Positions 45,041 through 57,603 of a stretch of 64,000 nucleotides of DNA are shown here, piece by piece. The stretch is from Nitrosospira multiformis (lineage in GTDB: Bacteria > Pseudomonadota > Gammaproteobacteria > Burkholderiales > Nitrosomonadaceae). The stretch covers positions 1,674,001 through 1,738,000 of the forward strand of contig NZ_FNKY01000001.1 in the NCBI RefSeq assembly GCF_900103165.1, in the 5' to 3' direction. How positions within the stretch are numbered: position 1 is the stretch's first letter; each line of letters starts with the position of its first letter. Made by a program: the position numbers and the translations under genes. A model generated the notes under the pieces. It was not told the origin of the DNA and did not search any database. It saw only the letters and a program-made list of their open reading frames with translations.

Positions 45041-46135
45041 TCAGAAATTGACAGCTAATGATGTTGTAATAAACGTGTTGTTGTCGGCGGCGGTACCATT
45101 CCTGGTGGTAAAAATACTGTCTTTACTGCTCAATGTTCTTGCCTCAATCCGCCACAATAAATTGCTGGTGATGTGGTAATCAAAATTGGCTGAGAACCCC
45201 CATGTTCTAAAACCATTAGGTGTGCCGGATGCGATGATTACGCCGTGTCTGTCATCGTAGTATTCCGCTCTGACTGCAATGGCGGTTTTTGCTGTGGGCG
45301 TATATCTCAGAATAATCGTCGGGTTGAACCATGTATTCATGGCTGAAGAATTCTTGTTTCGTTGTTCAATACCAATATCAAAATTTATCGCGGCGGAAAG
45401 TGCCTCAGTCACGCTAAAAATACCATAGAAATTATGAAAATAACGCATTTGCCTGGTGCTGTCAGGTTTGTCGCTACCGATAAATGTGCTGCTATTCAAT
45501 GTTATTTTTGAGGAAGGTTTATAAGTAATCTGGGTACCAAATGCGGGAACAGTATTCCCGTCCACTGGTTTAATGTGTTGCCAACCGTTTAGAGCTAATG
45601 CACTAAAAAACCATTTTTCATTCTTTGATGTGTAACTGATCTTAGCGCCTGATTCAAAATAGGGGGTATTCTCTGCACCCATACTCCGGGTTAATGTCCA
45701 ATTATCTTTACCCACCGCGCTTTCAAGACCGATGTGTGAAGCGAAGACACCGGCATCCAGCCACAGATTATTTTCTCCCGACAGCTTTACACCCACATTA
45801 CCTTCGTAGAAATTTCCCAATATGCCAGGCTCGGCCGCATAGTTGGCATTCATATAGGTACCCGCCGCTAACGCAAGGTTGCCCCTGATTTTGTTTGTGG
45901 TATACGATCCTTTCAGGAAAGCCAAATTTACTGAAGCTTCATTGTTTTTATTGAAATTAAAGAGAAACGAAGGCCTGGTGTCTCCGATTGGGTTATTGAA
46001 ATCACCGCCATAGTAAGTTTCCGCGTAGCCGCTAATGGTGAATGGTGAGAGGAAGCGGTTGAAAATTCCGGTACTGACTTGTGCATTGGCTTGTAGGGTT
46101 GTCAGTAGACAAGCGGCCAACACTATTCTTTTCAT
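45041..46135 (-). CDS. Outer-membrane beta-barrel porin (OmpL/Bbp2-like)
   Basis: A 364-residue protein with a signal peptide (MKRIVLAACLLTTLQANA) and a barrel of alternating beta strands ending in TTSLAVNF. It resembles the porin_4/Bbp2-type barrels, with segments such as FTISGYAETYYGGDFN and RPSFLFNFNKNNEASVNLAFLKG. The substrate is unknown. It is more AT-rich than its neighbours. Its promoter carries the same 49-bp module as the kdp operon, which suggests that it is made under potassium or osmotic stress together with the pump. Confidence 0.8.
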   Translation of the reverse strand: MKRIVLAACLLTTLQANAQVSTGIFNRFLSPFTISGYAETYYGGDFNNPIGDTRPSFLFNFNKNNEASVNLAFLKGSYTTNKIRGNLALAAGTYMNANYAAEPGILGNFYEGNVGVKLSGENNLWLDAGVFASHIGLESAVGKDNWTLTRSMGAENTPYFESGAKISYTSKNEKWFFSALALNGWQHIKPVDGNTVPAFGTQITYKPSSKITLNSSTFIGSDKPDSTRQMRYFHNFYGIFSVTEALSAAINFDIGIEQRNKNSSAMNTWFNPTIILRYTPTAKTAIAVRAEYYDDRHGVIIASGTPNGFRTWGFSANFDYHITSNLLWRIEARTLSSKDSIFTTRNGTAADNNTFITTSLAVNF

Positions 46136-46218
46136 CTTTGTCTTCTACGCCTCCGGCAAGTTTGACCGGGGAAACGCGTTTGTCAGTTATAAGTAACTGA
46201 ATATTAGAAGAAAAAGTA

Positions 46219-46267
46219 TAAAAATATTGTAAATAGCCAGCGAATTGTTATAAAAAATTCGTAAAAA
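46219..46267 (-). promoter_or_regulatory. Kdp-type regulatory module, porin copy
   Basis: On the minus strand, counting from 46267 as 1: TTTTTA at 1-6, a T run ending TTTA at 14-17, ATTTAC at 34-39 and TTTTTA at 44-49. TTTA therefore occurs at 3-6, 14-17, 35-38 and 46-49, exactly as upstream of kdp and of the PII-like gene. It ends 83 bp before the porin start codon. Confidence 0.65.
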
Positions 46268-46383
46268 TCGTGTGCGGCCTTATCCATGAATCAGGGAGGT
46301 TTTTTTTCACACGATTACACGATTAGGGTAGGACTCTTCCGGGGGCAAATTTCACCTTATTCAACCACGGGATTCGGCTTGAG

Positions 46384-48054
46384 TCATGCTTGCCGGGAAG
46401 CGCGCCGTTCTTTTTTCCAGATCGTGAACAGGGTATTCAGCTTATCTCGCTTGGTTAGTCGCTCGTCGGAAAGCGTTTCGAGAAACTCGGCCAGGCGTTT
46501 CGATTTCACCACCGTGTAGACCGTCAGTGCAATAATTGGAATGAGTATCAGCATAAAGTAGATCAGTTTGGTGCTGAACGTATTGTCGGCGGCGGCGATC
46601 AGGTTCATTCCCAGAAAACCAGTCGTCACGGTACCGATCAGGCCGAACGTGGTCACCACGGTCAACCGCACCATGGAATCGGTTTGACGCCTTACCTGGT
46701 CTCTTTCCAGGTAGTCGTTCATATCCAGAATACGCAGCCGCGTGCGCCTGTACAATTCGTCTGTGCCAAGGTGGTTTCTCATCATGGTAAAAACATCGCG
46801 GGCCTGAGCCTGGTCGGACACTTCATGAAACCAGTAGCGATTAGTAAACCGCAAAAAAATCTCGGTGACATGTTTTACGTCGCGTCTGAAGGCACGTACC
46901 GAATCGGGCCGGCGGATATCGAGCCGGCTGATTTCGGCAACGAGCCGGTTGGAGAGTATCAACAACGCGGCCTTATGGAAATGCGTGATCAGAAAGAGCA
47001 GAAAGTACTGATGACGGAACTGACCCAGCATGCCGCTTTCCGTATCCGTAAAGAAAGGTTCACCTGTTTCGCCTATCATCGTGAAATCATGACCGTTGGA
47101 GAGGAGACGCATATCGCTGAAATCATGTTCTCGCGCCTCTTCCCAGTAGCGATCGTAGCAGTAGCGCCGCTCGAAATCCTCCAGGAATTGCTCCGAAAAT
47201 GGTAGCGTCCGCGCGTCGCCTGGGCGCGTGACCAATCCGAACCGGACAAGATCGCCACGAGTCAGCCGGGTTTTTTCATCCAAAGCCAGGTAACTCATCA
47301 ACGGCATACGTTGATATTCGATTTCCCGATAGCGGACATCCCCTTCCCGCTGTGAGTGGTCAAGCACCAGCGGTTCCATCAGAAACTCCCAGTGGGACGC
47401 CACGCATGGTGCCCGATGTTCACCGACAAACCGCAGATAGCGTGCTTTGTTTTCATAGTCCGATACCGCAAGCACGGCGCCGCTATGCGAGAGCCACTCA
47501 ACGCGCTCTGCGCAGTGCCCACCGCGGCCGCTCCGCTCCCAATGTGTCGGGTAAGCTCGGCCGAAGCGGTACAGGGTGTCAAGTGCGCGTCGTAGCGAAA
47601 GTTTTTCGCCTATTATTTCCATGACCAGGATGGCGATGTCTATGTCATAGAAGAAATACAGATCGACATGTGCCACATTGAAAGTTGCGGGCAGGGGGTC
47701 GTCAGGAAGGGTAATTCGCGCTTGCGCAACATCATTGCGGCGAAATACGTGAATTGGCGAGCGCCCGAACCTTCCATCGCCATCACTGCCACCGCCCTCG
47801 CCATACAAAAAGCGTTGCACGAAGGGCAGGAAAGTGACAAATTCCTTGTAATGCCTTTCTTTGAACTCGGCTGGATCGACGCTGAACTCGTCCGCCACTT
47901 CATTCCATACAGAATCGGTGCTTGTCGCGCTCAGGCACTCCCAATGGTTCTGAATTTGTGTGCCTTCATGGCGCGGCAACAGTTGTACCGGCCAAAGCAC
48001 GATTTCTCTGAATTTTTCGACGTTTGGCAATTGAAGCGGTTCCGTGGCATTCAT
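46384..48054 (-). CDS. CorA-like membrane protein with long N-terminal domain
   Basis: A protein of about 556 residues whose last 120 resemble CorA-type divalent cation channels: a helix before the membrane (TRLRILDMNDYLERDQVRRQTD), a first helix followed by FLGMNLI with the signature GMN, a second helix (LIYFMLILIPIIALTVYTVV) and a basic tail. The first 430 residues are acidic and soluble, longer than in CorA, and I do not recognise their fold. I prefer ATG 48054 (AGGG six bases upstream) over 48060 and 48117. It lies between the porin and the PII-like gene on the same strand, so a role in cation balance is plausible. Transport of Mg2+ is not shown by the sequence alone. Confidence 0.7.
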   Translation of the reverse strand: MNATEPLQLPNVEKFREIVLWPVQLLPRHEGTQIQNHWECLSATSTDSVWNEVADEFSVDPAEFKERHYKEFVTFLPFVQRFLYGEGGGSDGDGRFGRSPIHVFRRNDVAQARITLPDDPLPATFNVAHVDLYFFYDIDIAILVMEIIGEKLSLRRALDTLYRFGRAYPTHWERSGRGGHCAERVEWLSHSGAVLAVSDYENKARYLRFVGEHRAPCVASHWEFLMEPLVLDHSQREGDVRYREIEYQRMPLMSYLALDEKTRLTRGDLVRFGLVTRPGDARTLPFSEQFLEDFERRYCYDRYWEEAREHDFSDMRLLSNGHDFTMIGETGEPFFTDTESGMLGQFRHQYFLLFLITHFHKAALLILSNRLVAEISRLDIRRPDSVRAFRRDVKHVTEIFLRFTNRYWFHEVSDQAQARDVFTMMRNHLGTDELYRRTRLRILDMNDYLERDQVRRQTDSMVRLTVVTTFGLIGTVTTGFLGMNLIAAADNTFSTKLIYFMLILIPIIALTVYTVVKSKRLAEFLETLSDERLTKRDKLNTLFTIWKKERRASRQA

Positions 48055-48271
48055 TCTCATCCCTGACTTGTTGAGAGAACTGGATTGTTGCTGATTTCGA
48101 CATATTACGCTTCGCATGCTTGGGAGGCTAAGTCATCCTAACCGGCGCTAAGCTCAAGCCTGGCGGTGGCCGCCCATTTTTCGCATCTGCTTCGCGGATT
48201 GCCTGCTTACCCCGTTTCACGTCGGCGAAAGCGGGGATGCTTCGGATTACGCTGCGATCCGACCTATGGAA

Positions 48272-48505
48272 CTACCGAACTTTGTTTTCATGCCATTTCC
48301 ATTTTCTTCTTCTTTGTATTTCACACGTGAAACTACAGGTTATTGGCCTTCCGTAGGCCATGTTGTGGCGCACGAGATTGACCTGGTGCGCTTTTCCGCA
48401 TATCGGGCAACAGTGCGGATAAAACCTCATTGCAGGTGTCTCGTTCGAGATTGGCGAGGGATCATATGTTTGCTGGCTAGGTGGCTTAGAACATAGGTTA
48501 GTCAT
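48272..48505 (-). CDS. Small hypothetical protein with CPxCGK motif
   Basis: A 77-residue frame whose ATG (48505) overlaps the stop of the PII-like gene by 8 bp, the usual sign of a coupled gene. The C-terminal half reads CCPICGKAHQVNLV... then ITCSFTCEIQRRRKWK, two Cys pairs in the spacing of a zinc ribbon. No ribosome site is visible and the N-terminal 25 residues look unstructured. It may be a real metal-binding partner of the PII-like protein or a chance frame. Confidence 0.4.
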   Translation of the reverse strand: MTNLCSKPPSQQTYDPSPISNETPAMRFYPHCCPICGKAHQVNLVRHNMAYGRPITCSFTCEIQRRRKWKWHENKVR

Positions 48506-48788
48506 GGTGAAGCATATCGGACGATATATTCTCGATCTTCGCGGCATGCGCCGTCGAAAGTATGGCGGAAATTATGCCGTCAGAGCGATTGTCATCGGAC
48601 GTAACCTCCAGTCGCATATGATCTTCACGCTTGGCAATGGCGGTCCCGCAGTACCAGTCGCCGAGTTCGCTGATGCATGTCCGATGCGACACCGGGGCAA
48701 TTATCAATCTATTCGCGCCTGCGATAAAAATGGCTTTACGCACCGCTGCCATTTCTGATGCGCTTACTACGAGGTTGATGCGTTTCAT
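48498..48788 (-). CDS. PII-like signalling protein
   Basis: A 96-residue protein with the beta-alpha-beta pattern of PII proteins: MKRINLVVSASEMAAVRKAIFIAGANRLIIAPV at the start and HMRLEVTSDDN...GIISAILSTAHAAKIE near the end. These match the first strand-helix and the helix with the A-x-T-G-K-I-like segment of GlnB relatives. The classical T-loop Tyr-51 region is replaced by SHRTCISELGDWYCG, so it is not GlnB or GlnK. PII-like proteins of this size usually bind a nucleotide and regulate a membrane transporter. ATG 48788 has AGGAG seven bases upstream. Its promoter shares the 49-bp kdp module, and it lies between kdpE and a CorA-like protein, so a role in potassium or cation transport is likely but unproven. 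Confidence 0.7.
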   Translation of the reverse strand: MKRINLVVSASEMAAVRKAIFIAGANRLIIAPVSHRTCISELGDWYCGTAIAKREDHMRLEVTSDDNRSDGIISAILSTAHAAKIENISSDMLHHD

Positions 48789-48848
48789 GCGATTCTCCTT
48801 ATCAAACAAGCTCAGCAGAGCCTGAATCAAATGCTAGAAGAAACAGCA

Positions 48849-48897
48849 TAAAAACGTAGTAAATAAACAACCGCCAACCGTAAAAAAATCATAAAAA
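48849..48897 (-). promoter_or_regulatory. Kdp-type regulatory module, PII-like gene copy
   Basis: Minus-strand module with TTTTTA at 1-6 (from 48897), TTTTTTTAC ending at 18, ATTTAC at 34-39 and TTTTTA at 44-49; TTTA at 3-6, 14-17, 35-38 and 46-49. The first part (TTTATGATTTTTTTACGG) resembles the E. coli KdpE box as I remember it. It ends 60 bp before the start codon. Confidence 0.7.
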
Positions 48898-48977
48898 TGG
48901 CCTGATAGGGTATTCACCAGGCTACGCTTTACTATTTCGATCGACGGTATCCGAATTTGGAAGTGCTCTTGACGTCG

Positions 48978-49679
48978 CTATTCCAGAGACAACAGTAATC
49001 GGTAGCCCACAGCGGTTTCGGTTTGAAGATATTTCGGTTGTGCGGGATCGTCTTCGAGTTTTTGCCTCAAATGTCCCATATAGATGCGTAGATAGTGACC
49101 GCTTTCCGAGTGCGACGGTCCCCAGACTGCGCGCAGGAGTTGCGGACTGGTTACCACCCGCCCCGCATTTTTCACCAGCATCGTCAGCAGCCGATATTCT
49201 AGCGGCGTTAAGTGAACTATTTGATTAGCCTTGGTTATGAGGCGCGCCTTGAGATCGATCCTGACATCTCCAAACTCGCAAACCCCATGATCGCTAACGC
49301 CAGGCTGGAGGTTTCGCCGTTGCATGGCGCGTACCCGCGCAAGAAGTTCGCCGACGCCGAACGGTTTGGTGAGGTAGTCGTCGGCCCCGGCATCAAGCGC
49401 TTTGATCTTATCCTGCTCATTGATGCGCGCCGACAAAACGATGATAGGAATCGATGACCATTTCCTGACGTCCAGGATGAAATCGACCCCGTCACCATCA
49501 GGCAGGCCGAGATCCAGGATAACGAGGTCCGGTTTGCGTGTTCCCGCATCGATGAGCCCCCGCCGGATGGTTTCTGATTCGAAGACTTGCCATCCTTCCG
49601 TCTCCAGCGCCATGCGCACGAAACGCCGTATTTGCGGCTCATCTTCGATTATTAGCGCAACGGGTACGGATTGACTCAT
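48978..49679 (-). CDS. kdpE: Two-component response regulator KdpE
   Basis: OmpR-type regulator of 233 residues. Receiver domain 1-125 has the acidic pair IIEDE, the phosphorylated aspartate in VILDLGLPDGDG and the conserved lysine in YLTKPF. The DNA-binding winged helix follows (LTPLEYRLLTMLVKNAGRVVTSPQLLRAVWG). It is activated by KdpD and should bind the TTTA modules described here. It lies 16 bp after kdpD. Confidence 0.96.
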   Translation of the reverse strand: MSQSVPVALIIEDEPQIRRFVRMALETEGWQVFESETIRRGLIDAGTRKPDLVILDLGLPDGDGVDFILDVRKWSSIPIIVLSARINEQDKIKALDAGADDYLTKPFGVGELLARVRAMQRRNLQPGVSDHGVCEFGDVRIDLKARLITKANQIVHLTPLEYRLLTMLVKNAGRVVTSPQLLRAVWGPSHSESGHYLRIYMGHLRQKLEDDPAQPKYLQTETAVGYRLLLSLE

Positions 49680-49695
49680 GGGCGCGCCTTTAGAT

Positions 49696-52533
49696 TCACA
49701 GTTCCGCAGGCCGGCTTAGGACAGCGTCATCCGGTGTATCTCCCTCATTTACGAGATTGACAGCACTTTCATCCATCTTGGGCATATCCGGAGGCGTGCC
49801 GAGCGGAAGCGTAAATACGAAAGAGGCTCCACCAGTCGATGCGGTTTCGGCATGGATAGTGCCACCGTGCGCCTCGACGATGGCGCGGCAAATTGCAAGT
49901 CCCAGACCAACGCCCGGTTTAGCCGATTCCCGCTCACCCCGGGTGAATTTCTCGAAAATAGCCTCTTCCATGCCGCGAGGTAGCCCAGGCCCATTATCGG
50001 AAACAATCACTTCCAGAAATCGCGCTTTCACCTCGGCGGCAATAATGAAACATGAATCGGGCGGCGTGTATTTGCTCGCATTTTCAAGGAGGTTACACAG
50101 CACTCGCTCAATCAGCACGGCATCGAAGCGCACAAGAGGCAAATCATGGGCGAGCCGGGTTTGCATATGATGCTGGATAAGCTGCGAGCGGCAGGTACGC
50201 AGCGCGCTGCCGACAACCTCTTCGAAGGGTTGCCATTGCAGATTGAGTTTGACTTCGCCACTCTGAATGTGCGCCATATCCAGCAGATTTGACACCAGAT
50301 TATTCATTCGAAGTGCTTCGTCGCGCAAGGCGACCGCAAGTTCCCGCTGCGGTGGAGCAAGCGGCGCGGACCGTACGAGCGAATCGGATAGCCCCACAAG
50401 CGACGTCAACGGTGTGCGCAAGTCGTGCGACAGCGCGGAGAGCAAGGAATTACGCAGCCGTTCGGATTCCATGCGTATCAGCGCACCCTGTGCGATTTCG
50501 ATATAATGCACCCGCTCCAGCGCAATTGCTGCCAGCGTGGCAAAGGTGTCGAGCTGCCGCCGTTGCTCGGGAATGAGCATCCAATGGCGGTTCTCCGGCT
50601 GGATGGCCAGGAGGCCACGCGTGCGCATGGGGGCGACCAGCGGCAGATAGAAGAAGCTTCCGCCAGGAAGCGTATCCGTTCCGATACCTGCGGATATCGC
50701 ATGGTCAAATGCCCATTGCGCGATACCCATATCCAGCTTGTATAGATGTTCCAGCGCAGATACGGGTGAAACGGTTGATTCTTCACCAGGCGCGAGGGGC
50801 GGCGGTTGTAAGTGACCCGCCTCATCTGGTAATAGCAATGTCGCCTGTGCGCGAAAAGTGCGCTGAATGAAGGTGCGCGTGCTCTCGAATATTTGCTCCG
50901 TCTGCAATGCGCCGGACAATTCGCGCGCAAATTCATACAAGGCGCGCGACCGGGATTCGCGATGCGATGCAACACGAGCCTGATAGCGCAAATCAGCGGT
51001 AAGATGGCCAGTGATCAAGCTCACCGCAAGCATTATCGCAAATGTCACCAGGTACTGCAAGTAACTGACAGCAAACGAAAATCTCGGCGGTACAAAAAAG
51101 AAATCGAACGCTATGATCCCCACAAACGTGGCGGCCACCGCAGGTCCGCGTCCTAATCGCACGGCAACCAGCACCACGGTCAGTAAAAAAAACATGACGA
51201 TGTTGGCCAAATCCAGATAGAGCGACAACGGCATGGCCGCAAGCGCTGTTACCAGGCTAGCCGCTGCTGCCCAGAAGTAACTCCACTGGCGCGCGGGGCG
51301 GCGTTTTGAAGAAGAGAGTTTTCTCCCTTCCGTGTGTCGGGCTGCTGCGTTCGATCTTTCCAAAACCGGCGGTTCTTCCGGATTTGCATGGCCGATTTCA
51401 ATCAAATCCATGTCCGGTGCGTAGGCAGCGATGCGTTTTAGATATCCGGTCCGCCAGGGCCACGCAGGGTGGCCGCGTCCCACTATGATATTTGAGAAAT
51501 TATGACTTCGCGCATAGTCGACGATCGCAAGCGCAATGTCATTTCCGGCCAGTATCGCTGTAGTGGCGCCATTATCCTGCGCAAGCTTCAGTATCTTTAG
51601 GATTCGTTCGCGATGTGCCGACGGCAGATGCTGTAATTGTGGCGTCTCAACATAAATCGCGTGCCAATTGGCATTCAATTGACTGGCCAGCCGTGCCGTG
51701 CTTCGAATCACATGCTCGCCTCCCATCCTGGGTCCAACGCAAGCAAGCAGGGCTGAATCTGTCTTCCATACCGCGTGGATTGACTTCTCGATACGATAAG
51801 CCTGCACATCATCTTCGACACGATCAGCCGTGCGGCGCAGCGCTAGCTCACGCAATGCAATCAAGTTGCCTTTACGAAAAAAATTACGCGCCGCGCGCTC
51901 CGCCTGTTGCGCCTGATAGACTTTTCCGGCCTTGAGCCGCATGAGCAACTCATCCGCTGTAATATCCACCAGCACGACTTCGTTGGCTTCATCAAACACG
52001 GTATCAGGCAAAGTTTCTCCAATGCGAATACCGGTAATTCCGCCCACGACGTCATTCAGACTTTCCAGGTGCTGCACATTGACCGTTGTGAATACGTCGA
52101 TGCCTGCGTCCAATAACTCTTCGACATCCTGCCAGCGTTTGGGGTGGCGCGAATCCGGTGCATTGGTATGCGCCAATTCATCTATTAGAATCAGCGCGGG
52201 CTGGCGCGCCAGCGCCGCATCGATATCGAATTCAGTGATAGCTTTACCGCGGTAGCTGATTTCCTTTTGTGGTAGAACCTCAAGCCCGTTGACGAGTGAC
52301 GCGGTTTCATTGCGGCCATGCGATTCGACCACCCCGACCACCACGTCATGGCCATCAGCCTGCAATTGCCGGGCGGCGGTCAGCATCGCATAAGTTTTGC
52401 CGACCCCTGCGGAAGCACCAAAATAAACGCGGAGTTTTCCACGGGATGCGCGGCGCTCCTGTGCCTGTACTTGCGCCAGCAGGGCGTCCGGGTCGGGGCG
52501 TTGGGGGTCGCGCTGGTTGTCAACTGGGCACAT
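49696..52533 (-). CDS. kdpD: Sensor histidine kinase KdpD
   Basis: Membrane sensor of potassium limitation and ionic strength, about 945 residues. The N-terminal KdpD domain has GASAGVGKTYAML (Walker A) and LIDELAHTNAPDSRHPKRWQD; a Usp-like domain lies at about 250-375; four membrane helices at about 420-520; a GAF-like linker; HisKA with SALSHDLRTPLTSL (phosphorylated histidine); and the ATPase with NLLENASKYTP and DNGPGLP. Two in-frame starts exist, ATG 52533 and TTG 52542, neither with a good ribosome site. It is 80 bp downstream of kdpC and may be co-transcribed. Confidence 0.95.
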   Translation of the reverse strand: MCPVDNQRDPQRPDPDALLAQVQAQERRASRGKLRVYFGASAGVGKTYAMLTAARQLQADGHDVVVGVVESHGRNETASLVNGLEVLPQKEISYRGKAITEFDIDAALARQPALILIDELAHTNAPDSRHPKRWQDVEELLDAGIDVFTTVNVQHLESLNDVVGGITGIRIGETLPDTVFDEANEVVLVDITADELLMRLKAGKVYQAQQAERAARNFFRKGNLIALRELALRRTADRVEDDVQAYRIEKSIHAVWKTDSALLACVGPRMGGEHVIRSTARLASQLNANWHAIYVETPQLQHLPSAHRERILKILKLAQDNGATTAILAGNDIALAIVDYARSHNFSNIIVGRGHPAWPWRTGYLKRIAAYAPDMDLIEIGHANPEEPPVLERSNAAARHTEGRKLSSSKRRPARQWSYFWAAAASLVTALAAMPLSLYLDLANIVMFFLLTVVLVAVRLGRGPAVAATFVGIIAFDFFFVPPRFSFAVSYLQYLVTFAIMLAVSLITGHLTADLRYQARVASHRESRSRALYEFARELSGALQTEQIFESTRTFIQRTFRAQATLLLPDEAGHLQPPPLAPGEESTVSPVSALEHLYKLDMGIAQWAFDHAISAGIGTDTLPGGSFFYLPLVAPMRTRGLLAIQPENRHWMLIPEQRRQLDTFATLAAIALERVHYIEIAQGALIRMESERLRNSLLSALSHDLRTPLTSLVGLSDSLVRSAPLAPPQRELAVALRDEALRMNNLVSNLLDMAHIQSGEVKLNLQWQPFEEVVGSALRTCRSQLIQHHMQTRLAHDLPLVRFDAVLIERVLCNLLENASKYTPPDSCFIIAAEVKARFLEVIVSDNGPGLPRGMEEAIFEKFTRGERESAKPGVGLGLAICRAIVEAHGGTIHAETASTGGASFVFTLPLGTPPDMPKMDESAVNLVNEGDTPDDAVLSRPAEL

Positions 52534-52613
52534 GGTTAGCAATAATTTTATCTATAAGAAGTGGCGGGTAACGAGTATTGCAGGCCGCGTTAGCGCAGCA
52601 GCCTGGCGGCCCC

Positions 52614-53186
52614 TTAACGCCGTTGGTCGAGTGCCAGATTCAGTGTCAGTACATTGACGCGTGGCTCGCCGAAGAAGCCAAAATACTGCGGTTTGCCGCG
52701 TTTATCAATCATGCCGCGTACTTCTTCGATAGTCAGTTTACGGGCGCGCGCGATGCGTCCCGCCTGATAGTAAGCTGCAGCCAGACTGATTTCCGGGTCC
52801 AGGCCACTGGCCGAGGCTGTCACCAGGTCGACTGGAAGCCGTGCGGTATTGCCGGGATCGGCTATTCTCAACGCGTCAATACGTGTTTTTAACGCATCGA
52901 TCTGCGCGGGATTGGTTGGACCGAGATTCGAGCCGCCCGACGATGCGGCGTTGTTCGGCATCGGACCGGTGGCCGAAGGCCGTCCCCAGAAATAGCCGGA
53001 GGATGAGAATGCTTGACCGATCAGCATGGACCCGACAGGCTGGCCATCACGCAACACCAGGCTGCCCGTCACCTTATCTGCAAAGAGTATTTGCCCGATA
53101 CCGGTGATCGCAAATGGGTACAGTACGCCGCAAACAAGCGTCAGCGCAGTGAGCAATACGAACGCGGGACGAAGGATGGATTTCAT
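52614..53186 (-). CDS. kdpC: Potassium-transporting ATPase subunit KdpC
   Basis: Single-span subunit of the KdpFABC pump, 190 residues. It has an N-terminal helix (ALTLVCGVLYPFAITGIGQILF), then GSLVLRDGQPVGSMLIGQ, YFWGRPSAT and the C-terminal VNVLTLNLALD. The A of its ATG is the last base of a MITE; the original ATG and its GGAG site are still present at 53426-53428 beyond the element. A frame through the MITE ends in a TGA that overlaps the present ATG (see 53183-53428), which may preserve translational coupling. Confidence 0.94.
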   Translation of the reverse strand: MKSILRPAFVLLTALTLVCGVLYPFAITGIGQILFADKVTGSLVLRDGQPVGSMLIGQAFSSSGYFWGRPSATGPMPNNAASSGGSNLGPTNPAQIDALKTRIDALRIADPGNTARLPVDLVTASASGLDPEISLAAAYYQAGRIARARKLTIEEVRGMIDKRGKPQYFGFFGEPRVNVLTLNLALDQRR

Positions 53187-53428
53187 CCTAAGTCCGGTAG
53201 TTGAACAGGGTGGAGTGTGCGATTTTTGGGGTGCAGGGCAAGGCGCAACGACGCGGAATGGTCATTCCATTCCAAGGAGTTGCAACGCAGCCCTGTGCCA
53301 CAAAAATCGTGCAATCCGCACTGTAGCGAACTCACCATAAAAGTGCAGGTCAAGTAGCGCAAATAGTGTTTATGTGTCATAGCACCGAGCTTGAGAAATG
53401 AGCGGTCAACTGCCGGATTTAGGATCAT
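53183..53428 (-). other. MITE-spanning reading frame using the former kdpC start
   Basis: From the ancestral kdpC ATG (53428-53426, with TAGGAG 6-7 bases upstream) a frame of 81 codons runs without a stop through the whole MITE and ends at TGA 53185-53183, overlapping the current kdpC ATG as ATGA. It is not a conserved gene, but translation of it could deliver ribosomes to kdpC. Confidence 0.6.
53186..53424. mobile_element. MITE copy 2, 239 bp, inside the kdp operon
   Basis: Terminal repeats CCTAAGTCCGGTAGTTG and CAACTGCCGGATTTAGG, flanked by TCA on both sides (53183-53185 and 53425-53427), a TNA target repeat like that of copy 1. The interior is about 80% like copy 1, including the GGAATGGTCATTCCATTCC palindrome. 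It separates kdpB from kdpC. Confidence 0.88.
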
Positions 53429-53437
53429 GCCAGGCTC

Positions 53438-55504
53438 CTAAACAAGATGGAGAGCAGTCAGCGCCATGTCGATCACCTTGATTCCAGCAAAAGGCACCAG
53501 AATGCCGCCCAATCCATAAATCAGCAAATTACGGCGCAATAGCAGGGCGGCGCCCACGGCACGATATTTCACGCCCTTTAATGCCAGGGGAATTAATATC
53601 ACAATGATCAGCGCGTTGAAAATCACGGCGGAAATGATTGCCGATGAGGGACTGGCAAGACGCATCACGTCGAGCGCCGCCAGTTGCGGATAAGTGGTGA
53701 CGAAAGCCGCCGGAATAATGGCAAAATACTTGGCGGCATCGTTGGCTATCGAGAAGGTGGATAAGGCCCCGCGTGTCATCAGCATTTGCTTGCCGATCTC
53801 GACGATTTCAAGCAATTTGGTCGGATTGGAGTCGAGGTCGACCATGTTGCCTGCCTCTTTCGCCGCCTGCGTACCGGAATTCATCGCAACAGCCACATCC
53901 GCCTGCGCCAGCGCGGGCGCATCGTTGGTACCATCGCCCGTCATTGCAACCAGGCGTCCCTCGGTTTGATAGGTTCGAATCAACTTGAGCTTGTCTTCGG
54001 GCGTGGCTTCCGCCAGGAAATCATCGACTCCCGCTTCGGCTGCGATCGCGGCGGCAGTCAGCCTATTGTCGCCGGTAATCATTACGGTTTTGATGCCCAT
54101 GCGGCGCAGCTCGGCAAAGCGTTCCTTGATACCGCCTTTGACGATATCCTTGAGTTCTACCACTCCCATGACACAGTCATCGTCGACCACGACCAACGGC
54201 GTACTGCCGCGGCGCGCGATATCGCCCACAGCTCTCGTGACTTCAGAAGGGAAAGGATGTCCCAGCAATTCAACGTATTTTTTTATCGAATCGGCAGCGC
54301 CTTTGCGGATGGCACGACCGCCGACATCCACGCCGCTCATGCGAGTTTGGGCGCTGAATGGGACAAACGTCGCATTCAACGATGCTATTTCGCGTCCGCG
54401 GATGTTGAAGCGCTGCTTCGCCAGCACGACAATGCTGCGGCCCTCCGGTGTTTCATCCGCCAGCGATGCCAATTGGGCAGCATCCACCAGTTGCTCTTCT
54501 GTGACCCCGGGAGCCGGAACGAATGTTGCCGCTTGCCGGTTACCCAGCGTGATAGTGCCGGTTTTATCCAGCAACAGCACATCCACGTCGCCAGCGGCTT
54601 CCACCGCACGGCCGGACGTGGCTATGACATTGGCCTGCATCATGCGGCTCATGCCAGCGACGCCGATGGCGGACAGCAAGCCGCCAATCGTGGTGGGAAT
54701 CAGGCATACCAAGAGTGCGATAAGTATCGTGATCGTAACCGGCTTGCCAACCTGGGCGGCCTCTACGCTGAACAATGAGAATGGCAACAGGGTAACCGTT
54801 ACCAGCAGGAAAATGATGGTCAATGCAATCAGCAGGATATTCAGCGCGACCTCGTTCGGCGTTTTTTGCCGTTTGGCGGCTTCAACCATGGAGATCATAC
54901 GGTCAATGAATGCCTCGCCCGGATTGACAGATATGCGCACCACCAGCCAATCGGACAGCACGCGGGTGCCGCCCGTTACGGCGGAGAAGTCGCCGCCCGA
55001 TTCTCGGATAACCGGTGCGGATTCGCCGGTAATAGCGCTTTCATCGACCGATGCAACGCCCTCGATCACTTCACCGTCGGCCGGAATGACATCGCCCGCT
55101 TCCACCAGCACGGCATCGCCCTTACGCAGGCCGGTGGCGGGGGTCGATGTCCAGCTGCCGCCATAGCGCGGCGCGTCCAGTTTCTTGGCGGTGACCGTTT
55201 GTTTCAAGGCGCGGAGTGAAGCCGCCTGCGCCTTGCTGCGGCCCTCCGCCAGCGCTTCGGCGAAGTTTGCAAACAGCACCGTGAACCACAGCCATACCGC
55301 AATGGTGAGAATAAAAGCAGGGCTTTCCTCACCGCCGCCGGTAGCCGACTGCATGAACAGCAAAGTGGTAATGATGCTGCTGATATAGACGACAAACATC
55401 ACCGGACTGCGCCATTGAATGCGTGGATCCAATTTCTTGAATGCATCAATGATGGCCGGGCCAATCAATGCGGAATCGAAAAGTGTCAGGCTTTTGCGTG
55501 ACAT
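53438..55504 (-). CDS. kdpB: Potassium-transporting ATPase subunit KdpB
   Basis: P-type ATPase subunit that drives potassium uptake, 688 residues. Motifs: TGES in the actuator domain ([10 protein letters not shown]), the phosphorylation site [12 protein letters not shown], nucleotide-domain KGAAD, and the hinge [20 protein letters not shown]. Membrane helices flank these. It starts 12 bp after kdpA. All catalytic residues are present. Confidence 0.97.
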
Positions 55505-55516
55505 GCCGGATTCCTC

Positions 55517-57325
55517 TTAGCGTGTGGCATAAAGTTGTAAATGCTCGACAATCGGCCCCAGTGCAATGGCCGGAATGTAGGTCAGCACACCGACCATAAT
55601 GACGGTACCGACGAGAAGTGTGATAAAGAGGGGGCCATGGGTTGGCATTGTTCCCGCAGTCACTTCAAGACGCTTCTTTGCGGCTAGCGAGCCGGCAATC
55701 GCTAACACTGCTACGATAGGAATAAAGCGGCCCAACCACATCGCGATTGCCAGCAGGACATTGTAGAACGGTGTATTGGCCGATAAGCCGGCAAAAGCGC
55801 TGCCGTTATTATTGGCGGCCGACGACAATGCATACAAAATTTCGGAAAAGCCATGTGCGCCGGGATTCAAAATACCTGCCTTGCCGGAAGCAACCATGAC
55901 CGCTAATGCAGTCCCGCCCAGCACCAGTAGCGGTGTAACAAGGATCGCAATCGAGGCCATTTTCATTTCAAACGACTGAATTTTTTTGCCCAGATATTCG
56001 GGCGTGCGGCCAATCATCAAACCGGCGATGAATACGGCAAGAATGGCGAAAATCAGCATGCCGTACAAACCCGAGCCAACTCCACCGAATACCACTTCGC
56101 CCAGTTGCATCAGCAGCATAGGTACCATGCCGCCAATTGGCGTCAAGGAATCATGCATCGTATTCACCGCGCCACAGGATGCCGCCGTGGTGACTGCGGT
56201 GAACAATGCGGAAGCGCTGATGCCAAAGCGTGTTTCCTTGCCTTCCATATTGCCGCCGGATTGCAGCGCGTTAGCGGTTTGATCAATGCCGAGTGCTTGC
56301 ACCGCCGGATGCGCCTGTTGCTCCGCGATCAGCACGACGGTCGTCATCACGGCAAAAATGATTGTCATCGCGCTCAATATCACCCAGCCCTGACGTATAT
56401 CGCCGACCATGCGGCCGAACGCAAAGCACAGTCCGGCGGGAATCAGCAGAATCGACAGCATCTCGGCAAAATTGGATAATGGAGTGGGGTTCTCGAAAGG
56501 GTGCGCAGAGTTCGCATTAAAAAAACCGCCGCCATTCGTTCCGAGCAGCTTGATGGCCTCCTGTGAAGCAACCGGTCCCATTGCCAGTGTCTGGGTTTTG
56601 GCAATCGCGGACTCCATCACTTGATTGCCCTTTTCGTCTTTTATCGCTTGGCCGTCGGAGCTGGTTTTAGCCTGTAGATAGGTGACGGGCTCAATCAAGC
56701 TTACTTCCTTGTATGCGGAAAAATTCTGTATCACGCCTTGACTGATCAGAAATACGGCAAATAGCGTTGATAGCGGTAGCAATACATAGAGGGTCGAACG
56801 AGTAATGTCATGCCAGAAATTACCGATTGATTTTACCGAGTGGCGTTTGAAACCGCGGATCAATGCGTAGGCGACGGCCATGCCGGTCGCGGCCGACAAA
56901 AAATTCTGTCCAGTCAGCACCAGCATTTGCGTGAGATAGCTCATCGTCGATTCACCGCCATAACCTTGCCAGTTGGTATTGGTGGTAAAGCTGATGGCGG
57001 TATTGAATGACGAATCGGGATTGACGTTGGCAAATGCTTGCGGATTGAGCGGCAGCCAGGCTTGCAGGCGTTGCACTGCGTAAACGGTTAACGCGCCCAG
57101 CACATTAAACACCAGTAGCGCCAATGCATAGACCTTCCATCCCATTTCCGAATCCAGCGAAATACCGGCAAGACGGTAAAAGAAGTTTTCAATTTTTCTT
57201 ATCCACATCAGGCCGCGTATGGGCTCCCCCTCGCCGACTTTTGCCAGATACGTACCCAAAGGATAAGCCAGCATCAGCAGTGTGGTGAGGAACACCACAA
57301 GCAAAACGAGAGATTGCGCAGTCAT
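55517..57325 (-). CDS. kdpA: Potassium-transporting ATPase subunit KdpA
   Basis: Potassium-binding channel-like subunit, 602 residues, with about ten membrane helices. Selectivity-filter-type segments are visible: TNTNWQGYGGE, GTNGGGFFNANSAHPFENP, AVTTAASCGAVNTMHDS and SSAANNNGSAF. ATG 57325 gives MTAQSLVLLVVF; its A is also the last base of the kdpF stop (TAATG). The open frame extends further upstream to 57448, but that part overlaps kdpF and is not KdpA. Confidence 0.96.
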   Translation of the reverse strand: MTAQSLVLLVVFLTTLLMLAYPLGTYLAKVGEGEPIRGLMWIRKIENFFYRLAGISLDSEMGWKVYALALLVFNVLGALTVYAVQRLQAWLPLNPQAFANVNPDSSFNTAISFTTNTNWQGYGGESTMSYLTQMLVLTGQNFLSAATGMAVAYALIRGFKRHSVKSIGNFWHDITRSTLYVLLPLSTLFAVFLISQGVIQNFSAYKEVSLIEPVTYLQAKTSSDGQAIKDEKGNQVMESAIAKTQTLAMGPVASQEAIKLLGTNGGGFFNANSAHPFENPTPLSNFAEMLSILLIPAGLCFAFGRMVGDIRQGWVILSAMTIIFAVMTTVVLIAEQQAHPAVQALGIDQTANALQSGGNMEGKETRFGISASALFTAVTTAASCGAVNTMHDSLTPIGGMVPMLLMQLGEVVFGGVGSGLYGMLIFAILAVFIAGLMIGRTPEYLGKKIQSFEMKMASIAILVTPLLVLGGTALAVMVASGKAGILNPGAHGFSEILYALSSAANNNGSAFAGLSANTPFYNVLLAIAMWLGRFIPIVAVLAIAGSLAAKKRLEVTAGTMPTHGPLFITLLVGTVIMVGVLTYIPAIALGPIVEHLQLYATR

Positions 57326-57414
57326 TACAAATCCTCTGCGTTTATCAGGGCAATGACCAGATATATTAATAGACCAGCCGCGACGACCGCGCCAATAACA
57401 TAAAACATGTTCAT
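57325..57414 (-). CDS. kdpF: KdpF small membrane subunit
   Basis: A 29-residue hydrophobic peptide, MNMFYVIGAVVAAGLLIYL followed by VIALINAEDL, of the size and sequence style of KdpF, which stabilises the KdpABC complex. Its stop TAA overlaps the kdpA start by one base and its ATG overlaps the stop of the 30-aa frame before it. Confidence 0.85.
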   Translation of the reverse strand: MNMFYVIGAVVAAGLLIYLVIALINAEDL

Positions 57415-57503
57415 TGACGCTCGCCCAGTTTGCCGCAGCCGATGGCAAACGCGCAGGTCACGAGCAGAAGTGCCAGGATTGCACCGATATATAGAAGATC
57501 CAC
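57411..57503 (-). CDS. 30-residue membrane peptide upstream of kdpF
   Basis: GTG start, peptide MDLLYIGAILALLLVTCAFA then IGCGKLGERQ: one membrane helix and a short charged tail. The stop overlaps the kdpF ATG as ATGA, so it is arranged as the first cistron of the kdp operon. It lies 51 bp after the regulatory module. Small frames of this type precede kdpF in other proteobacteria as far as I recall; no function is assigned. Confidence 0.6.
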   Translation of the reverse strand: MDLLYIGAILALLLVTCAFAIGCGKLGERQ

Positions 57504-57554
57504 TGTCGCCCCAACCAGGCTATTTTGAATATAGACAGATTAACCGGGGTCGCC

Positions 57555-57603
57555 TAAAAATCTTGTAAATATCCGGTCAATGGGCGTAAAGAAAGTGTAA
57601 AAA
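57555..57603 (-). promoter_or_regulatory. KdpE-type regulatory module of the kdp operon
   Basis: Minus strand from 57603: TTTTTACACTTTCTTTACG at 1-19, ATTTAC at 34-39, TTTTTA at 44-49, so TTTA occurs at 3-6, 14-17, 35-38 and 46-49. The first part closely follows the E. coli KdpE box as I recall it (TTTATACTTTTTTTACACC). The 11-bp spacing within each pair is usual for OmpR-family dimers. Confidence 0.75.

Follow-up and report, generated by a model that had tools for sequence, protein, structure and literature searches.

The kdp Locus and Its Three Promoters

The DNA analyzed here, called the window, is a stretch of 64,000 nucleotides from Nitrosospira multiformis (assembly GCF_900103165.1, contig NZ_FNKY01000001.1, positions 1,674,001 to 1,738,000), and positions within it are counted from its first letter. 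On its minus strand lies a locus that holds the potassium pump Kdp, its two-component regulators KdpD and KdpE, a small PII-like protein, a CorA-like gene and an outer-membrane porin. The pump is encoded by kdpF (57325..57414, 29 amino acids (aa); TIGR02115 and PF09604), kdpA (55517..57325; TIGR00680, 758 bits, its start set by eye at the methionine of MTAQ), kdpB (53438..55504; TIGR01497, 1088 bits) and kdpC (52614..53186; NF001454, 247 bits). Then come the sensor kinase gene kdpD (49696..52542; NF007793, 1126.6 bits against a cut-off of 1123) and the response regulator gene kdpE (48978..49679; NF007820, 345.3 bits against an equivalog cut-off of 325), whose product is the proposed activator of the three promoters described below. 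Further downstream are the gene of the PII-like protein (48498..48788, 96 aa), the CorA-like gene (46384..48117; PF01544, 23.9 bits when tested from 48054, under the cut-off of 27) and a BBP2 (OmpL-like) porin (45041..46135; PF07642, 350 bits, E = 1.8e-104, cut-off 26.2).

A sequence-only reading of this DNA had described a module of 49 base pairs (bp) upstream of kdp, the PII-like gene and the porin, with TTTA at module positions 3-6, 14-17, 35-38 and 46-49. All three copies are found exactly at the positions and on the strand given there, and the four TTTA words stand in place in each. The module extends past 49 bp. In 3 of 3 copies, the series TTTA-N7-TTTA-N17-TTTA-N7-TTTA is followed 12 bp on by TAnnnT, a -10-like hexamer that the earlier reading had missed. 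The promoter of kdp thus occupies 57537..57603 (half-sites starting at 57601, 57590, 57569 and 57558; TAATCT at 57542-57537), that of the PII-like gene 48831..48897 (48895, 48884, 48863 and 48852; TAGCAT at 48836-48831), and that of the porin 46201..46267 (46265, 46254, 46233 and 46222; TAATAT at 46206-46201), each hexamer lying exactly 12 bp after the fourth TTTA. The half-sites, at offsets 0, 11, 32 and 43, fall roughly on one face of the DNA. Beyond the half-sites and the -10, the three promoters have little in common.

The module is very rare in its own genome. The pattern TTTTTA-N27-ATTTAC-N4-TTTTTA has three matches in 3,515,922 bases, all in the kdp locus, and its reversed form has none; a stricter 23-position pattern allowing up to three mismatches again yields just the three window sites (one match for the control). 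When half-sites were written as TTTR together with the -10 and up to two mismatches were allowed, one further place appeared at C1:2620560-2620624 (two mismatches; control 0). It was taken as chance, not as a fourth promoter, the first half-site being destroyed and the next ORF (open reading frame) of at least 90 aa on the same strand starting about 520 bp on. This place, which is outside the window, overlaps a palindrome near a small XRE-like ORF of the opposite strand. Within the locus, the earlier statement that the CorA-like gene, kdpD and kdpE have no module of their own holds as well: the best score upstream of the three genes is 10/19, and the kdpB/kdpC stretch reaches 11/19.

Conservation before the PII-Like Gene and the Porin

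The family was sampled with 125 genomes of Nitrosomonadaceae. The bare 16-letter half-site pattern matches 12 times in 7 of these genomes, against 4 matches for its reversed form, and 3 of the 12 are the window modules. KdpA is found in 19 of the 125 genomes and the PII-like protein in 7, all of them within the 19; a contig scan with two peptide patterns located the PII-like protein at five loci, only in Nitrosospira and Nitrosomonas. Each of the seven PII-like genes is preceded by the module and TAnnnT, three with 16/16 half-site letters and four with TATA as the first half-site. Likewise, a BBP2 porin with the module occurs at eight loci of the family, at seven of which all 16 letters and TAnnnT are present. 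In three genomes of Nitrosomonas type (G024, G051 and G065), the PII-like gene is inverted and diverges from the porin, and the module stands before both. In another genome (G037), a short contig that lacks kdpA carries the porin module next to kdpC, kdpD and kdpE.

Column identities, computed within ortholog groups after removal of near-identical rows, separate the half-sites from their surroundings. Across Nitrosomonadaceae, they are 0.91-0.96 for the half-sites, 0.54-0.71 for the rest of the module, 0.26-0.42 for the upstream flank and 0.32-0.56 for the downstream flank. For the PII-like and porin promoters, the half-sites are 0.96 identical, with upstream flanks at 0.26 and 0.42 and downstream flanks at 0.56 and 0.32, respectively. 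The sequence-only reading had expected that conservation of the module before PII-like and porin genes in other species would speak for it, and such conservation is found in Nitrosospira and Nitrosomonas, despite the inversion of the PII-like gene in the latter.

BBP2 porins as such are common, being present in 121 of the 125 genomes and giving six matches in the genome of the window. As this genome has only three modules, its other BBP2 genes have none. Upstream of BBP2 genes, three kdp-less genomes score 10/19 at best and three genomes with a kdp-linked copy score 19/19, a comparison of family members and not necessarily of orthologs.

The PII-like protein matches the P-II family of Pfam weakly, residues 1-83 aligning with profile positions 1-83. 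When its alignment was compared with solved structures by sequence search, only weak matches were obtained, PII appearing at E 0.32 or worse. From its AlphaFold model, which is of moderate confidence (pLDDT 69.8), the PII fold, beta-alpha-beta-beta-alpha-beta, is predicted: the 50 matches listed of the 119 with E of 0.001 or below in a Foldseek search are PII-family proteins or complexes.

The Pattern in Other Kdp-Bearing Bacteria

The full grammar, TTTR-N7-TTTR-N17-TTTR-N7-TTTR-N12-TAnnnT, was scanned blind to gene content, with the reversed pattern of the same composition as control. A sample of 369 genomes of the order gave 21 matches in 17 genomes against 1 for the control. The concern, named in the sequence-only reading, that the motif would match AT-rich DNA at random rates was addressed by this pattern scan rather than by a weighted matrix, and was not borne out. 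Of the 369 genomes, 119 have a KdpA match; these include every one of the 17, and none of the 250 kdp-less genomes is matched. The association with KdpA has P of about 2e-9 if the genomes are treated as independent, which overstates it since they are related. Eighteen of the matches lie outside the window: 15 are located 158-389 bp before a KdpA match, one precedes a porin leading into kdpFA, and the remaining two belong to a single genome and lie away from the kdp copy that it has as well. Counted by genome, the strict grammar stands before kdp in 17 of the 119, the window's own and the porin-led one included. An independent parallel comes from a genome of another family (G693; L207, 11916-11980 and 10846-10910, minus strand), in which a Gcw_chp porin and kdpFA are each preceded by a module, the one at kdpFA with 15/16 letters and the full -10. 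The class sample, also of 369 genomes, gave eight matches against three for the control; three are those of the window, four are upstream of kdpA elsewhere, and one, before an apparent phosphoglycerate kinase gene as judged by eye (G423), was taken as chance.

The kdp loci were also examined by themselves, in a set made up of the best 29 of 44 other class genomes with KdpA, plus Escherichia coli (n = 30). Shuffled sequences used in these scans preserve base content only, not dinucleotides. An exact first pair occurs within 450 bp of KdpA in 17 of the 30 loci (shuffled mean 0.97). When rows were selected on this exact first pair only, 11 of 23 showed a second pair at offset 32 that agreed in 6 or more of its 8 letters, 4 of the 23 rows being themselves second pairs; no other offset had such a pair in more than 4 rows. 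TAnnnT showed a similar peak at offset 59 from half-site 1 (10 of 23 rows; 2 at most at any other offset). By full scoring, ten of the 30 loci have an exact first pair, a second pair of at least 6/8 (G for A counted as half) and the full -10; six more carry a weaker version with the full -10, a level that 0 of 100 shuffles reached. The site is thus conserved upstream of kdp in other genera, as a KdpE site should be, though not in every kdp locus.

In a further scan of 45 kdp stretches of the class, 14 modules were found, of which ten are upstream of kdpA and two lie elsewhere in kdp loci (L144 and L181). The other two (L169 and L183) were taken as chance, the control giving two matches in the same scan.

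KdpE as the Proposed Activator

E. coli KdpE has been reported to bind two half-sites, S1 TTTATA and S2 TTTACA, whose starts are 11 bp apart (PMC3264566). TTTA is essential in each of them, its alteration abolishing binding, and a footprint from -72 to -50 is cited in the same paper. The first part of the module, which the sequence-only reading had matched to the E. coli KdpE box, does agree with it in the TTTA words and the 11-bp spacing. Measured against TTTA(T/C)A, all three window promoters are exact in TTTA and spacing and always have T or C as the fifth letter, and the sixth letter A is missing from some half-sites. The kdpF promoter of E. coli MG1655 reads TTTA-N7-TTTA-N17-TTTG-N7-TTTG-N12-TACCCT, and matches the full pattern by script. 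With the footprint at -72 to -50, its TACCCT would fall at about the -10 position. Because the grammar precedes kdp in other genomes and the same layout is present at E. coli kdpF, we take it from the sequence that the three modules are KdpE-type promoters.

The regulator itself is consistent with this assignment. R193, R200 and T215 of E. coli KdpE are described as important for DNA binding, and R193 as conserved among KdpE orthologs only (PMC3264566). In the numbering of that paper, all three residues are identical in the window KdpE.

With a KdpE equivalog, its DNA-contact residues, a kdp-linked grammar and conservation before both further genes, the sequence evidence argues for what the earlier reading had proposed, namely that the PII-like gene and the porin belong to the KdpE regulon. 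We consider it probable that Kdp pump, PII-fold protein and BBP2 porin form one regulon through KdpE-dependent promoters. That KdpE binds upstream of the PII-like gene and of the porin is an inference, and so are its occupancy of the second pair and the placing of two dimers on four half-sites.

The activation would start with a fall in potassium, or with high sodium or ammonium, upon which KdpD would phosphorylate KdpE. The first KdpE dimer would sit on the first TTTA pair, and a second dimer on the pair that lies 32 bp further along and faces the same way. This latter pair is found where a -35 would be expected, with 12 bp separating it from the -10. At a class II activator promoter, the site of the activator overlaps the -35 at a fixed distance from the -10, and in PhoB-dependent promoters of this class the pho box, built from 11-bp direct repeats, replaces the -35 at such a fixed distance, possibly about 10 bp upstream of the -10, a figure that the literature searched did not confirm. 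Overlap of this kind is what is seen here, TAnnnT lying at offset 59 in the three window promoters and in many others. Given this placement of the second pair, KdpE probably replaces -35 recognition and brings in RNA polymerase much as PhoB does; the likeliest architecture would be a PhoB-like class II promoter with one extra dimer upstream.

The regulon would then consist of the Kdp pump operon, the PII-fold protein with the downstream CorA-like gene, and the BBP2 porin. Judging from their promoters, pump, small signalling protein and outer-membrane pore are probably switched on together at low potassium. The porin may pass potassium through the outer membrane, and for the PII-fold protein we propose a role in adjusting uptake to the ammonium or nucleotide state. 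In Mycobacterium smegmatis, KdpE activates kdpFABC from a 22-bp site, with SigF involved, and Kdp is induced by low potassium and by high sodium or ammonium (PMC5401905). The same source reports induction of Kdp by high ammonium in E. coli. Since these bacteria live on ammonia and Kdp is reported to be ammonium-induced, a sensor of nitrogen or nucleotides beside the pump seems plausible, and the regulon may be of particular relevance for ammonia oxidizers.

Alternative Readings and Contrary Evidence

The second pair is where the KdpE model can most readily be disputed. It may be that KdpE binds the first pair only, and that the second pair belongs to the core promoter instead, as conserved T-rich DNA adjoining the -10 that acts as a poor -35 or as a bendable spacer. 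This view is favored by the footprint published for E. coli, which ends at -50 and covers only the first half-site pair of the layout (PMC3264566), and by the third half-site, which is degenerate (TCAA or TTAA) in 10 of 13 kdp rows of Nitrosomonadaceae and reads TTTT or TTAT in several other kdp promoters of the class. Against it, the second pair takes up the TTTA words of the first with the same 11-bp phasing, faces the same side of the helix and has an offset that is sharply 32. In the three window promoters, moreover, inspection by eye shows no TTGACA-like hexamer at a distance of 16-18 bp upstream of the -10. We regard binding of the first pair alone as unlikely, though with some weight behind it. 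Another idea is that the copies before the PII-like gene and the porin go back to a duplication of the kdp promoter and persist by inheritance as relics, KdpE having ceased to use them. One Nitrosomonadaceae genome fits this picture: in G103 (L054 10628-10674), the PII-like gene has been lost and its partly decayed promoter is kept, with 14/16 half-site letters and an intact TAGCAT. Relics should not hold half-site columns at 0.96 identity across Nitrosospira and Nitrosomonas while flanks diverge to 0.26-0.56, nor does the lack of further likeness among the window promoters resemble recent duplication; this origin appears improbable. It is more improbable still that an OmpR-family regulator other than KdpE reads the module. 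Direct repeats spaced by 11 bp are also used by other members of that family, but the first pair agrees with biochemically defined KdpE half-sites in words and spacing, the grammar is confined to kdp-bearing genomes in the order sample (17/119 versus 0/250), and the residue R193, specific to KdpE orthologs according to PMC3264566, is conserved in the window KdpE. Finally, chance matching in AT-rich intergenic DNA, to which a T-rich pattern is prone, can be practically dismissed, given the real and reversed-control counts in the order, class and family scans (21 versus 1, 8 versus 3 and 12 versus 4).

The regulon with two KdpE dimers at each promoter is thus preferred, and the E. coli footprint and the degenerate third half-sites weigh against it as well. 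Several other observations do the same. No strict match precedes kdp in 102 of the 119 KdpA-bearing genomes of the order, and 13 of the 30 kdp loci lack an exact first pair within 450 bp. TAnnnT is in its fixed place in 5 of 13 kdp rows of Nitrosomonadaceae, the other eight having CATACT or GATACT. When three mismatches are allowed, extra matches in relatives, especially in AT-rich Nitrosomonas, are near the control level. At the porin, the -10 is in place in seven of eight rows, the eighth module (G103) having 14 letters and no TAnnnT there, and in one genome (G025) the inverted PII-like gene with its module has no porin within the 20 kb examined. The PII-like protein scores 15.7 bits against the P-II profile and does not reach the cut-off of 25. 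For E. coli KdpE, kdpFABC is called the sole target in PMC7657598, yet 31 peaks of ChIP-exo (chromatin immunoprecipitation with exonuclease digestion) are reported there; a sole described target is at odds with a wider regulon.

Other Features of kdp Loci

Between the kdp promoter and kdpF of the window, a micro-ORF (57411..57503, minus strand) encodes a hydrophobic peptide of 30 aa. Of 13 kdp loci inspected, 10 have such a hydrophobic micro-ORF, about 30 codons long and beginning with MD or ME, downstream of the KdpE-type promoter and ahead of kdpFA (the window, G102, G408, G192, G260, G164, G455, G215, G428 and G298), in some of them within a longer frame; it was not seen in the other three (G103, G024 and G370). 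Two micro-ORF sequences were compared with Pfam and NCBIfam, and neither gave a family match; that of the window has none. It may be an undescribed Kdp microprotein. On the other side of the locus, an ORF with a cysteine motif of the CPICG...C type and no Pfam match (48272..48547, minus strand) follows the PII-like gene. The motif forms part of a cysteine-rich C-terminal extension of the PII-like protein in four genomes of Nitrosomonas type. Three genomes of Nitrosospira type were examined, the window included, and in these it is encoded apart from that protein, by a separate ORF or in a different frame.

Modules also occur beside other genes. In G260 (L144 8749-8813), a second module of the kdp locus (15/16, TAAGGT) stands before a small protein and a gene of the CorA family. 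In G323 (L181 8650-8714, minus strand), a 16/16 module with an imperfect -10 lies after kdpE and before an uncharacterized 131-aa protein; downstream, OadB-like and Kup-like ORFs were recognized by eye, the Kup-like one about 3 kb on. G498 has two modules away from kdp (L204 6633 and L206 5458). One is before an ORF without a Pfam match. The other precedes a protein of 76 aa, for which a ferredoxin-like fold is predicted, and a gene of the sodium/calcium-exchanger family comes further on. A profile comparison of this small protein with the PII-like protein of the window was not significant (probability 1.9%), and its best matches in the Protein Data Bank mix PII-like and ACT-type proteins, none with E of 0.001 or below, too little to carry weight.

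Porin-type genes recur in kdp loci (L145, L163, L166 and L150). Among the 45 kdp stretches of the class, a BBP2 porin adjoins kdpC in three (recognized by Pfam in G164 and G358, and in G404 only with a home-built profile), and in G348 a Gcw_chp protein is found between kdpB and kdpD. In G192 (L142 7779-9395), a homolog of the CorA-like protein of the window, with 53% identity, comes directly after kdpC.

Significance and Comparison with Known Systems

KdpE belongs to a standard model of two-component regulation, and is described with a box of two half-sites and one E. coli target. If confirmed, the promoters discussed here would add a second conserved pair of half-sites with a fixed -10, which is testable in E. 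coli itself, and a regulon that joins potassium uptake, outer-membrane permeability and a PII-fold signalling protein. No description of a second KdpE pair, or of a PII-like or porin target of KdpE, was found in the open-access literature, most subscription journals lying outside the search. For Nitrosomonas Is79, the presence of Kdp is mentioned in PMC3764937, a paper in whose text the word "porin" is absent. The exact grammar is specific enough to flag other KdpE targets from sequence, while it misses most kdp promoters. A broader proposal is that the textbook KdpE promoter, that of E. coli included, consists of four half-sites for two dimers, the second replacing the -35; that it has repeatedly been placed before porins, ion transporters and PII- or ACT-fold proteins in Burkholderiales and other Gammaproteobacteria; and that ammonia oxidizers thereby possess a potassium-ammonium regulon tying a PII-fold protein to Kdp. 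For this wider claim as a whole, we see the balance as even.

The closest known system is the kdpFABC site of E. coli, which has in common with the window promoters the TTTA words, the 11-bp spacing and the position relative to kdp; the window activator is an equivalog of KdpE and shares its DNA-contact residues. It has been described with two half-sites and one target, whereas the window has four half-sites, a fixed -10 and two further targets; however, the E. coli kdpF promoter also carries the second pair, in the form of TTTG words. In M. smegmatis, KdpE activates kdp as is proposed for the window KdpE. It differs in the involvement of SigF, and the description consulted names no second pair, porin or PII-like target. 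As for the two further genes, the window porin is a strong match to the BBP2/OmpL-like family (PF07642), and is set apart by lying in a kdp locus and having a KdpE-type promoter. The PII-like protein shares the predicted beta-alpha-beta-beta-alpha-beta fold with PII/GlnK proteins, but remains under the P-II cut-off and is encoded in the kdp locus. In promoter architecture, the pho box of PhoB is the nearest likeness: it too is read by an OmpR-family activator and places 11-bp repeats at the -35 with a fixed distance to the -10. The window promoters depart from it in their half-site, TTTAyA instead of TGTCA, and in having another pair further upstream, half-site 3 starting 21 bp after the start of half-site 2.

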